DNA of 36,137 nucleotides. Origin: a virus. The stretch is from IMG/VR virus record IMGVR_UViG_3300046170_000384, positions 1-36,137 of that record; one strand, written 5' to 3'. Positions 118 through 33,410 of the stretch are shown here, piece after piece. The notes below the pieces were generated by a model that had not been told where the DNA came from, searched no databases, and saw only the letters and a program-made list of their open reading frames with translations. Positions within the stretch are counted from its first letter, which is position 1, and the number at the start of each line of letters is the position of its first letter. A program made the position numbers and the translations under genes.

Positions 118-1170
118 AATGCGTTACCTCTAGGTAGAACTTCCTCAGGGAATACGAATGACTCATGTGGTTGATCAACTGGTGCCAACCATGCACGTAG
201 TCCTTCATTCAATAGATGTTCTTGGTATAGAAAGTCTCAAACTCTGGATCTTCTGCTGCACGAATCTCTTGAGATACAAAGTCGTAAGCACGTAGATTAA
301 GAGCGAGTCCAATAATACCGATAGAACTTGTCCAGAGACCCATGACGGGAACGAAGAGCATAAAGAAATGCAACCAACGCTTATTACTAAAAGCAATACC
401 GAAGATCTGTGACCAGAAACGGTTCGCAGTAACCATCGAGTAAGTCTCCTCCTCTTGCGTAGAGTCAAAAGCCTTGAAAGTGTTTGCTTGATCCCCATCT
501 TCATACAGAGTGTTTCTCTACAGTTACACCGTGAATAGCAGATAGCAATGCTCCACCAAGTATACCAGCAACTCCCATCATATGGAAAGGGTTGAGCGTC
601 CAGTTATGGAAACCCTGTAGGAAGAGTAGAAAGCGGAATATCGCAGACACACCAAACGACGGTGCAAAGAACCAACTGGACTGTCCGAGAGGATAGATGA
701 GAAACACACTGACAAAAACAGCGATAGGCCCAGAGAACGCAATAGCGTTGTACGGACGGAATTCCAATTAACCTAGCCAACTCGAATTGACGAAGCATGA
801 AACCAATGAGGGCAAATGCTCCGTGGAGCGCCACAAAATTCCAGAGTCCCCCAAGTTGGACCCAGCGGACGAAATCCCCCTGAGCCTCAGGACCCCAGAG
901 AAGAAGAAGAGAATGACCCATAGCGTCAGCTGGAGTGCTAACTGCCGCTGTAAGAAAATTTGCACCCTCAAGATAGGAACTAGCGAGACCGTGGGTATAC
1001 CAGCTCGTTGCGAAAGTCGTGCCAGTAAGCCAGCCCCCAATAGCAAGATAAGCAGTGGGTAGAAGAAGAAGTCCAGACCAACCAATAAAAACGAAACGAT
1101 CCCGTTTAAGCCAGTCGTCGAGTACATCGAACCACCCCCTTGTTGGTACTTGTAGTGTACTTGTAGTCAT
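114..1170 (-). CDS. psbD: Photosystem II D2 protein (three single-base frameshifts)
   Basis: This is D2, which pairs with D1 in the photosystem II reaction centre in the thylakoid membrane. The reading begins [20 protein letters not shown], continues through [15 protein letters not shown] and [15 protein letters not shown], and ends [12 protein letters not shown]. Three frames must be joined: an extra base near 758-759 (GGAATTCCGTCC where GGAATTCGTCC is expected), an extra A in the run at 513-515, and a missing base near 214. Corrected, it gives about 351 residues, the normal PsbD length. An AAGGA Shine-Dalgarno precedes the ATG. It follows the small gene at 1188-1400 and overlaps the DoxX start. 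The protein is conserved right up to each break, so sequencing error is more likely than decay. Confidence 0.93.
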
Positions 1171-1187
1171 TTATTTTTTCCTTGATT

Positions 1188-1400
1188 TTAGTTAACAATA
1201 CCTGTTAAGGCAAATTTTGTTTGATCACCTGGTGTATTTTCATAGGTAGAAGAGTCTCCATATCCTTTGTGATCATTATAACCAACCATACGACCTTTCG
1301 TATTTTGAAGGGCAGGCATAAAGACAATGAATAAGAAAACTCCTGGTGCGCCGATGAATGCAACGGCAACAATCACATAATACGTAAGAAGTTCAGTCAT
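1188..1400 (-). CDS. Small single-pass membrane protein between psbA and psbD (paralogue of 14142-14369)
   Basis: This is a 70-residue protein with one hydrophobic N-terminal helix (about residues 5-30) followed by a polar tail containing MPALQNTKGRMVGY. A second copy lies at 14142-14369 beside an hli gene, and the two are identical at about 47 of 63 aligned positions. I do not recognise it as a named photosystem subunit; it does not resemble PsbN or PsbZ as I remember them. Its place between psbA and psbD, and the second copy among hli genes, suggest a photosynthesis-linked role in the thylakoid membrane. That is inference. The gene lies downstream of the psbA terminator, so its expression needs read-through or a separate start. 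Confidence 0.8.
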   Translation of the reverse strand: MTELLTYYVIVAVAFIGAPGVFLFIVFMPALQNTKGRMVGYNDHKGYGDSSTYENTPGDQTKFALTGIVN

Positions 1401-1426
1401 AATAAAACTTAATATTTGAAGGTAAA

Positions 1427-1457
1427 AAAGAAGGGGTCCGAAGACCCCCGCTTCTTA
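1427..1457 (-). terminator. Rho-independent terminator downstream of psbA
   Basis: On the minus strand GGGGTC and GACCCC (1433-1448) flank a UUCG tetraloop, flanking AAGAAG/CTTCTT bases extend the stem, and a T-rich tail (TTCTTTTTT) follows. It ends psbA transcription, with read-through presumably feeding psbD. Confidence 0.85.
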
Positions 1458-1475
1458 CTAATTGTAGCAGGTTAA

Positions 1476-2558
<1,083 letters not shown>

Positions 2559-30465: not shown

Positions 30466-31465
30466 AAAGACACATTTCCTTAACTAATTCTTTAAAAGAA
30501 ACTTTAGGCACCCAACCTAAGATTTCTTTTGCCTTTGTGGCATCACCTAATAAAGTTTCAACTTCAGCAGGTCGGAAATATTTATCATCTATTCTAACAA
30601 TTGTTTTTCCAGTATTTTTATCAACACCTACTTCATCAAGTCCTTGACCCACCCACTCAATATCAAAACCAAAGTAAGATGCAGATTCTTCTACAAAATC
30701 CCTAACTGAATACTGCTCACCAGTAGCAATAACATAATCATCTGGTTCGTCTTGCTGCAACATCAACCACATTGCTTCGACATAATCTCTAGCATGTCCC
30801 CAGTCTCTTTTAGCATCTAGATTTCCAAGATATAAACAATCATCTTTTCCATTTCTAATCCTATTCAATCCCATTGCAATCTTTTTAGTTACAAAAGTTT
30901 CACCTCTCCTTGGACTTTCGTGATTAAATAAAATTCCTGAACTTGCATGAATACCATATGCCTCCCTATAATTTTTTGTAATCCAATGGGCATATAATTT
31001 TGCCACACCATATGGTGATCTTGGATAAAAAGGAGTTATTTCCGTCTGAGGAATTTGTTGAACTTTACCAAACATTTCGGAGGTAGATGCTTGATAGAAC
31101 TTAACTACATTCTCCATTTTAAGAATTCGTATTGCTTCTAAAATACGAAGAGTTCCCATTGCATCACTGTTTGCAGTATATTCTGGAGTCTCAAATGATA
31201 CTTTTACATGGCTCTGTGCTCCTAAGTTATAAATTTCATCAGGTTGAATCGTTTGAATCAACCTAATAAGATTGGTGGAGTCTGTGAGATCTCCATAGTA
31301 CAACTTAAAATTTTTATCATTTTCAAAAATATCATCAATTCTACTGGTATTGAACGAAGAACTTCTTCTTTTAATACCATATACTTTATATTTCTTGTTT
31401 AATAAAAACTCCGCTAGATAAGAACCGTCTTGACCTGTGACTCCAGTGATGAGTGCTTTTTTCAT
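30458..31465 (-). CDS. gmd: GDP-mannose 4,6-dehydratase
   Basis: This 335-residue enzyme makes GDP-4-keto-6-deoxy-D-mannose from GDP-mannose, the branch point to GDP-fucose, GDP-perosamine and GDP-rhamnose. It has [20 protein letters not shown] at the start, [10 protein letters not shown] with Thr/Ser/Glu at 128-130, the catalytic Tyr152 and Lys156 in [32 protein letters not shown] and [17 protein letters not shown], all diagnostic. Host GDP-mannose is presumably the source. It is coupled to the epimerase gene by ATGA. Confidence 0.96.
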
Positions 31466-32494
31466 GAATTAATTTGAGAGACAATCCAGTTATAAGTTTT
31501 ACGAATACCTTCTTCCAAAGTCTGAGAATAATCCCAACCAAGTTCTTTACGAATCAAATCATTGTTAGAATTACGACCACGAACTCCAAGAGGTCCATCA
31601 ATATGAATCTTAGCAACTTCCTTTCCTGCAACTTTTGCAGCAGTATCTACAAGTTGATTGATGGTTACCATCTCTTCAGAACCAATATTAACTGGTCCCA
31701 TAAAATCAGACTGCATCAATCTGTAAGTTGCTTCAACGCATTCGTCAACGAACAAGAAGGAACGAGTTTGTAAGCCATCTCCCCACACTTCGATTGCTCC
31801 ACCTTGCTCCGGGAGGTAAGCGACTTTACGGCAGATTGCAGCTGGTGACTTCTCTCTGCCGCCGTCCCAGGTCCCTTCAGGACCAAAGATATTGTGATAC
31901 CTAGCAATACGAACAGGGATGCCATGGTTGCGATTGTAGGCAAGGTAGAGACGCTCGCTAAAGAGTTTTTCCCATCCGTATTCGGAGTCTGGTGCTGCTG
32001 GATATGCATCATTTTCCCTCAGTCCAGGATTGTTTGTTTCTTCTTGAGCATATTCTGGATACATACAAGCAGAACTAGAGTAGAAAATTTTAGGATAATC
32101 TCCACCCATCTCTTTTACTACTCGGAGAACGTGCAGATTAATAGTCACAGAGTTCTGCATAATGTCTGCATCATTCTCACCACTGAAAACGAAACCTGCA
32201 CCTCCCATATCAGCAGCAAACTGATAGATTTCGTCAAATGGTTCTACCATTTGATAGGGAATTTCATTATGATAATTACCTTGATATCCTTTGAATTTTA
32301 AACACTGTCTAACATGATCATAGTGAGTAAGATCAGCTAACAACAAACTCATTAGCCTCCGTTTCAGAAAATTCGGGACGTTTTACATCAACTCCACGAA
32401 CCCAGTATCCTTCGGATCGTAATCGTTTTACCATATGTGAACCGATAAATCCACCTGCACCCAGTACAAGTGCAGTCTTAGTATATTCAGACAT
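31462..32494 (-). CDS. GDP-mannose 3,5-epimerase (one frameshift), first gene of the glycan operon
   Basis: This enzyme converts GDP-D-mannose to GDP-L-galactose and GDP-L-gulose. It is best known from plants in vitamin C synthesis. The reading starts [20 protein letters not shown] and shifts frame near 32336-32345. It continues [80 protein letters not shown] and [20 protein letters not shown], all diagnostic for GME. Corrected length is about 343 residues. It begins about 25 bases after the -10 of a sigma70 promoter. Its presence beside gmd gives two fates for the same GDP-mannose. Confidence 0.93.
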
Positions 32495-32518: not shown

Positions 32519-32547
32519 ATCATACAAAAAAAGACCCTTGTTGTCAA
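32519..32547 (-). promoter_or_regulatory. Sigma70 promoter of the glycan operon, inside a terminator
   Basis: Minus-strand TTGACA (32542-32547), 17 bases, TATGAT (32519-32524). The -35 is part of the hairpin loop and 3' arm of the terminator at 32525-32555, and the T-run of the terminator forms the spacer. No late octamer overlaps it, so early transcription of the 17 kb operon is predicted. Confidence 0.75.
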
Positions 32548-32555
32548 GGGTCTTT
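32525..32555 (-). terminator. Terminator upstream of the glycan operon
   Basis: GACCCTTG and CAAGGGTC form a perfect 8-bp stem with a 4-base loop (32533-32552). T-runs flank it, seven T on the minus strand and TTT on the plus strand. It ends transcription arriving from the tRNA side. Confidence 0.85.
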
Positions 32556-32566
32556 GAAGGTCTTGT

Positions 32567-32657
32567 CATGCACGCCACTTGCTCTTTTACCTGAAGCAAG
32601 AAACAGAGCGGGAGTATAACCCCATCCACACCACTTACTCTTAGGTAAAGTAAGAAA
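32567..32657 (-). repeat. Tandem imperfect repeat with two matching hairpins
   Basis: Two units of about 36 bases (32623-32657 and 32567-32603) share TTTCTTRCTT, TAAxAGxRAGTGG and GTGxATG on the minus strand, 56 bases apart hairpin to hairpin. Each forms a stem: CTTACT/AGTAAG (32634-32654) and CTTGCT/AGCAAG (32578-32600). The A-T pair of one is a G-C pair in the other, a compensatory change that suggests selection for RNA structure. No convincing protein is encoded here. Confidence 0.55.
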
Positions 32658-32661
32658 CCTA

Positions 32662-32853
32662 TTAGTTCCAGAGTGCTTGGACTTTTGTTTCCAACTCAAT
32701 GAACCTTGCATCAACTTCTTGTTGTGCTTTATCACTAGATTCTAGTGCTGCAACCTTTGCTTCAAGTGCTTTGAGTCTAGCTTCAACCTCAACGTCATAT
32801 TTTGACATCGCTGCTCCGCTTGCAGACTTTGCTGCTTTTCCTTGTGTTGACAT
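32662..32853 (-). CDS. Small coiled-coil protein
   Basis: This 63-residue protein starts MSTQGKAAKSASGAAMSKYD. It then forms a heptad-repeat coiled coil (VEVEARLKALEAKVAALESS, ending ELETKVQALWN). Short coiled-coil proteins of this type recur in cyanomyoviruses and may be virion-associated. ACTAAATA on the minus strand (32878-32885), 25 bases before the ATG, is a late-type promoter candidate. A downstream in-frame ATG (MSKYD) could also start it. Confidence 0.7.
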   Translation of the reverse strand: MSTQGKAAKSASGAAMSKYDVEVEARLKALEAKVAALESSDKAQQEVDARFIELETKVQALWN

Positions 32854-32877: not shown

Positions 32878-32885
32878 TATTTAGT
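32878..32885 (-). promoter_or_regulatory. Late-type promoter octamer ACTAAATA
   Basis: Located 25 bases before the coiled-coil gene and identical to the octamer in the hydrolase promoter spacer at 13651-13658. Confidence 0.4.
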
Positions 32886-32958
32886 TTTTAGAAGGGTCTA
32901 ATGACTCCACCAGTTCTGTTAAAGTCCATCCGTGACTTTGGGATTATCCCGACCAGGG

Positions 32959-33201
32959 CTAGTTTACACGACATACCGAGTCTTTAGTATAACAGGGTAC
33001 ACCATCTGGATCTAACCATTTGGTGTACTCAAAGTCATCAATCGCAGTCAGGAGTTGCATCTGGTTATCAAGGAGGTACATATCACTGTATCTCTTTGAC
33101 CAACTATTTGCTTTTTGAATACGATAGTCTGGCATACCATTGATTTCCAATGTACCACACTCAACATAACGATACGGGAAACGTTCTAGTAGAACTTTCA
33201 T
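32959..33201 (-). CDS. Small soluble phage protein
   Basis: The 80-residue protein starts MKVLLERFPYRYVECGTLEI and continues YSDMYLLDNQMQLLTAIDDF and YTKWLDPDGVPCYTKDSVCR. It is rich in Tyr and Asp with three Cys. It overlaps the gene upstream by four bases (ATGA). The 105 bases after it contain a short AAAGTC/GACTTT hairpin (plus-strand arms) without a T-run. No function is recognised. Confidence 0.65.
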   Translation of the reverse strand: MKVLLERFPYRYVECGTLEINGMPDYRIQKANSWSKRYSDMYLLDNQMQLLTAIDDFEYTKWLDPDGVPCYTKDSVCRVN

Positions 33202-33410
33202 GCTTCGACTGCTTCAAGATCGACAGAGATTTGTTCCATCAAAATATCATAATCATCAAGAGCATCGCCTGAAAAGACAACACCAGTGTTTTCATAATAA
33301 CGACGGACCTTTTTGAGAAGTTTCGGATTCTTCACATCCAGGAAGAACTCTCCATTTACCGCACCCTTTAGAGTTTGGATATCTTTCTTGAACTTAGTAG
33401 TCAGTGTCAT
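33198..33410 (-). CDS. Small soluble phage protein
   Basis: The 70-residue protein starts MTLTTKFKKDIQTLKGAVNG and has a basic central helix (VKNPKLLKKVRRYYENTGVV) and an acidic end (DDYDILMEQISVDLEAVEA). It is led by a sigma70 promoter whose -35 lies in a palindrome. It is the first gene of a two-gene unit. The function is unknown. Confidence 0.65.
   Translation of the reverse strand: MTLTTKFKKDIQTLKGAVNGEFFLDVKNPKLLKKVRRYYENTGVVFSGDALDDYDILMEQISVDLEAVEA

Follow-up and report, generated by a model that had tools for sequence, protein, structure and literature searches.

The wcaG RNA (RF01761), a catalogued structured RNA of ocean cyanobacterial viruses, is filed, following a proposal in the main text of Weinberg et al. 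(2010; PMC2864571), as a cis-regulator of downstream exopolysaccharide and high-light genes. Listings describe it as a probable riboswitch-like regulator of phage exopolysaccharide genes, a label taken up in later papers on cyanophage genomes. Two further RNA families in the same main text invite comparison: the STAXI motif, which shares a pseudoknot repeated in tandem but has other gene neighbours, and manA (RF01745), which is also a structured RNA, known from both marine metagenomes and T4-like cyanophages, but forms a separate family, with no Rfam match in the window analysed here (a virus record of 36,137 nucleotides, IMGVR_UViG_3300046170_000384). Also related are the PeSLs, composite promoter-terminator motifs of T4-like phages (Arbiol 2010 and Comeau 2014, as cited in PMC4503421), which combine a terminator stem-loop with an early-type promoter where modules meet; our comparison with them draws on the citing paper and general knowledge.

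The region studied here has its best relatives in T4-like Synechococcus phages such as SynMITS9220M01, Bellamy and S-SM2, and it carries a true copy of wcaG. The Rfam match, at 32564-32662 on the minus strand, spans the full model (1-98 of 98) and scores 91.5 bits against a gathering score of 42, which bears out the guess of an earlier sequence-only reading that the hairpins at this place form a wcaG-type RNA. The limits proposed then, 32567-32657, were roughly right, with ends 3-5 bases off those of the Rfam match and the minus strand as the transcribed one. The stem letters are all present (plus strand: CTTGCT 32578-32583, AGCAAG 32595-32600, CTTACT 32634-32639 and AGTAAG 32649-32654), and the surrounding 500 bases hold eight perfect 6-bp inverted repeats with loops of 5-12 bases, a number that none of 300 dinucleotide shuffles reached (mean 1.2). 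The locus agrees with the catalogued family in sequence, secondary structure, cyanophage source and a position flanked by a small gene and a glycan operon. It differs in that the catalogue points to the downstream genes, a label that suits the surroundings here poorly, as they speak for the transcript on the upstream side.

Table 1. Features of the wcaG locus, in window coordinates
Feature	Position	Strand	Details
wcaG RNA (RF01761)	32564-32662	-	Two tandem H-type pseudoknots plus linking hairpin; Rfam, covariation
Pseudoknot 1	32634-32661	-	Stem CUUACU 32654-32649 / AGUAAG 32639-32634; helix UAGG 32661-32658 / CCUA 32645-32642
Linking hairpin	32610-32623	-	GGG 32623-32621 / CCC 32612-32610
Pseudoknot 2	32578-32607	-	Stem CUUGCU 32600-32595 / AGCAAG 32583-32578; helix UCUG 32607-32604 / CAGG 32593-32590
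Intrinsic terminator (pattern scan)	32530-32555	-	AAAGACCCTTGACAACAAGGGTCTTT plus T-rich tail; 11-bp, starts 8 bases past wcaG
Promoter-like site, glycan operon	32519-32547	-	TTGACA 32547-32542, 17-nt spacer, TATGAT 32524-32519; 11/12 consensus matches
First glycan gene, NAD-dependent epimerase/dehydratase	31462-32494	-	Pfam PF01370 on intact part; frame broken near 32345
Coiled-coil-like ORF, 63 aa	32662-32853	-	PHROG 35121, E 4.6e-17, no assigned function; stop codon abuts wcaG 5' end
CTAAATA, T4-type late-promoter-like heptamer	32878-32884	-	Precedes coiled-coil ORF
Second structured element	32893-32960	-	Hairpin AGUC-ACGGAUG-GACU (32937-32923), then AACAGNNCUGGU; covarying stem
gp206-like upstream-module gene, conserved	32959-33201	-	PHROG 481, no assigned function
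Upstream-module gene, conserved	33198-33410	-	PHROG 552, no assigned function

The structure of wcaG can be read from its relatives. We collected at least 258 full-length relatives with at least 208 unique cores and aligned 61 divergent ones, on which both hairpins, the linking hairpin and the loop helix of pseudoknot 2 were scored. Across the whole structure, 98.5% of cells are paired in these 61 sequences and 175 cells have changed on both sides. Column shuffles give 39.7 such cells, and sliding the partners by 1-3 columns gives 0-26. For pseudoknot 2, the stem is paired in 100% of cells and the loop helix in 99.2%, the latter with 55 double-change cells; the linking hairpin is barely tested by covariation because it is nearly invariant. 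Pseudoknot 1 has a loop helix too, formed by the bases just 5' of UUUCUU, which pair with the loop as AGG/CCU, GAG/CUC, UGG/CCA or AAG/CUU. Over 85 unique combinations this helix averages 2.94 pairs, versus 2.32 when permuted, and 0 of 2,000 permutations reach that value. As both hairpins carry a loop helix, wcaG consists of two tandem H-type pseudoknots, established through covariation. The loop helices do not appear in the main text of Weinberg et al. on wcaG (PMC2864571); we claim no priority for them. Selection for RNA pairing had been proposed from an A-T pair in one unit that is G-C in the other; the swap is real, but it sets one unit of the molecule against another and is weaker as proof of pairing. 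The strong covariation in the 61 divergent relatives is better evidence, and it upholds the proposal. A single-sequence minimum-free-energy fold (z -2.2) lacks the covarying stems, because the two units are alike enough to pair with one another, and we set it aside.

Other forms of the RNA are also found. Single-unit copies with one pseudoknot only occur in ACG-2014b (L318, 1503-1541) and S-SCSM1 (L346, 4387-4432), and extended or divergent copies with a further unit, GUUUU-CCUGUUU...AAACAGG-UGGCGUGCAUG, occur in S-PM2 (L345, 1480-1700) and ACG-2014e (L348, 2730-2960), each with a tRNA gene directly 3'. The 3' tail (columns 110-117 of alignment A1) has two main forms, GCGUGCAUG and GCGAGCCUG. 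Among the matches listed, two lie in genome contigs, both from MAGs (L352, 5551-5599; L353, 2826-2870) with bins assigned to Bacteroidetes and Sideroxydans; these are possibly misbinned phage or chance matches.

The claim that no gene covers the hairpins holds in practice. A frame of 63 codons with a GTG start (32544-32735) crosses wcaG, but the conserved coiled-coil ORF overlaps it in a different frame and it looks spurious; a protein-coding reading of the region is unsupported. Small hypothetical ORFs are annotated across wcaG in several phage records. A BTnc231 sRNA hit in Rfam, at 16.5 bits against a cut-off of 80.4, was dismissed as chance.

As the loci were gathered by wcaG sequence patterns, the frequencies below describe wcaG-bearing loci only. 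Upstream, the same small-gene module, made up of the families of the two PHROG-assigned module genes and the coiled-coil ORF in Table 1 (the last of which may be replaced by a small membrane-like protein), lies 5' of wcaG in 173 of 186 loci among the matches listed, and it is kept in 153 of 163 listed loci regardless of the downstream genes. In the window, a small late-type unit comprising CTAAATA and the coiled-coil ORF continues directly into wcaG. Where that gene is present among the listed matches, its stop codon falls on the first bases of wcaG in 32 of 35 loci, and HTAAATA stands about 32 nt 5' of it in 40 of 41, compared with 9 of 410 random windows. By analogy with the T4 consensus TATAAATA, HTAAATA would be a late promoter in cyanophages; this putative promoter is confined to coiled-coil-type loci.

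Between the coiled-coil ORF and the gp206-like gene lies a second structured element, which has no match in Rfam. Among the matches listed, the fetched cyanophage loci contain 96 distinct copies, each with at least four Watson-Crick pairs, and the stem takes the compensatory forms AGUC/GACU, AGAC/GUCU, CGUC/GACG and CGCC/GGCG. Over 22 combinations it averages 4.18 pairs, versus 2.80 when permuted (permuted maximum 3.77). Most copies lie about 300 nt 5' of wcaG and some 40-100 nt 5'. One lead is that such elements form a series in which wcaG may come last.

Promoter and terminator calls are pattern matches throughout. A PeSL-type combination is present in the window, where the terminator (32555-32530) overlaps the -35 box of the 11/12 promoter match and TTGACA sits within the hairpin. 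Among the matches listed, 174 of 195 relatives have a terminator within 110 nt 3' of wcaG, at a median spacing of 10; within 150 nt 5' of it, the count is 3 of 195, against 7 of 195 random windows. In 140 of these 174 listed relatives, the hairpin contains a -35-like box and a -10 box follows, with a 17-nt spacer in 130, TATAAT in 106, and TTGCAT (70) or TTGACA (34) among the -35-like boxes. The next operon therefore seems to own a promoter 3' of wcaG. Conversely, promoter-like sites in the 150 nt 5' of wcaG are rarer than random among the matches listed (none in 151 of 195 loci, versus 104 of 195). In a set of 109 mutually divergent representatives of the listed matches, the terminator is present in 91 and the upstream module in 99. 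Strictly matched, the fused element occurs 191 times behind wcaG and 9 times elsewhere in the same listed loci, raw counts from redundant loci that were chosen for wcaG. It resembles the PeSLs, but here it nearly always follows wcaG and holds its -35 box within the hairpin.

Downstream of the fused element, the genes vary. Among listed loci with both flanks long enough (163), glycan genes open the downstream side in at least 122, hli does so in 5, and 36 are unclassified, some of which also look glycan-like. The catalogued position of wcaG 5' of exopolysaccharide or high-light genes thus holds here, before an epimerase operon, and in 127 of 163 relatives among the matches listed: epimerases follow in S-SM2, Bellamy, SynMITS9220M01 and S-SKS1, and hli in Syn9, S-RS29 and S-IOM18. 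A tRNA and a tail-fibre-like gene follow wcaG in S-RSM4 and a 2OG-Fe(II) oxygenase gene in S-H38; in S-SCSM1, two inserted metabolic genes separate the upstream module from the annotated wcaG. In 11 unclassified contexts among the matches listed where tRNAs follow, the terminator is missing from 8, wcaG stays and the upstream module is retained in 10. The order of upstream module, wcaG, terminator-promoter and variable operon is conserved, and the combination of constant upstream and variable downstream genes is consistent with PeSL-type module shuffling.

We consider it about an even bet (probability near 0.5) that wcaG chiefly forms a structured 3' terminus for the transcript coming from upstream and sits before a composite terminator-promoter, with the glycan operon starting anew after it. 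Transcription would begin at the late-type promoter near 32884, pass through the 63-aa coiled-coil ORF and then wcaG, and stop at the intrinsic terminator; the pseudoknots might protect or mark the 3' end so formed, or give rise to a stable small RNA. A host-type promoter lying within the terminator would start the glycan operon afresh, leaving wcaG out of its main mRNA, and the terminator-promoter would form the border between a late unit on the upstream side and an exchangeable one for host metabolism. Several lines of genomic context favour this reading: the terminator some 10 nt behind wcaG in 174 of 195 listed relatives; the fused site in 140 of those listed, with few promoter-like sites 5' of the RNA; the constant upstream module, the stop codon at the start of wcaG and HTAAATA before the coiled-coil genes; and the tRNA contexts, which often lose the terminator yet keep wcaG and the module. 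Two observations count against it. A glycan gene comes first downstream in at least 122 of the 163 listed loci, where a pure 3' element needs none, and a terminator directly behind a structured RNA also has the look of an attenuator.

That last arrangement is what would be expected if wcaG instead regulated the glycan or hli operon in cis from its 5' side. Transcription begun further upstream would then cross the RNA, which would sense a metabolite or light-linked signal and control terminator read-through, as an attenuator or riboswitch. This explanation, already published in Weinberg et al. (PMC2864571, main text), accommodates both the 127 of 163 listed loci with a glycan or hli gene first downstream and the terminator at a fixed short distance in about 90% of listed relatives, but we judge it rather unlikely. 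The sequence-only reading had set the hairpins just before the glycan operon; the adjacency stands, with both on the minus strand, but it does not make wcaG the leader of that operon, because the intrinsic terminator and promoter-like site intervene, which bears on the catalogued 5' UTR role. In most listed loci the promoter-like site 3' of wcaG would bypass the RNA, such sites are not enriched 5' of it, and wcaG persists before tRNA and tail-fibre genes. Nor is an antiterminator pairing clear: when own-pair complementarity between wcaG and the terminator is compared with permuted pairs, the left arm shows a slight excess (7.37 versus 7.16; highest of 60 permutations, 7.31) and the right arm none.

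A compact structured RNA directly before a strong terminator, next to polysaccharide genes, also recalls RNAs that act on RNA polymerase, such as the antitermination or pausing elements put of HK022 and EAR of the Bacillus eps operons, and wcaG could by analogy let upstream transcription pass the terminator. However, put and EAR act in leaders near the promoter, whereas wcaG lies far from any promoter-like site and some copies have no terminator, making such a role improbable. More improbable still is that the block persists mainly because it offers a homology site for module exchange, its RNA structure being incidental. The constant upstream and variable downstream genes would suit such a site, and PeSLs are described as mediators of shuffling in T4-like phages in the paper that cites them (PMC4503421), but DNA homology would preserve sequence and not pairing, and the covariation would be unexpected.

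Returning to wcaG as the end of the upstream transcript, the label of cis-regulator of exopolysaccharide genes would then rest on adjacency, and searches for a sugar-metabolite ligand would target the wrong gene. More tentatively, the genomic context suggests that wcaG has been assigned to the wrong neighbour: late cyanophage transcripts would have it as a tandem-pseudoknot domain at their 3' end, where it would close a series of related structured elements and be fused to a terminator that holds the promoter of the next operon. If so, late upstream transcription could be insulating or blocking the host-metabolism operon. The wcaG-terminator-promoter block could also provide a simple model for how early and late modules are separated and exchanged in T4-like cyanophages.

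Finally, we note that the psbA- and psbD-like genes at the far end of the window (205-2558, minus strand) are split over several frames. Like the break in the first glycan gene, these are likely indel errors of the contig. A PhotoRC-II RNA (RF01717, 75.2 bits) lies at 2593-2688 on the minus strand, 5' of the psbA-like reading frames.
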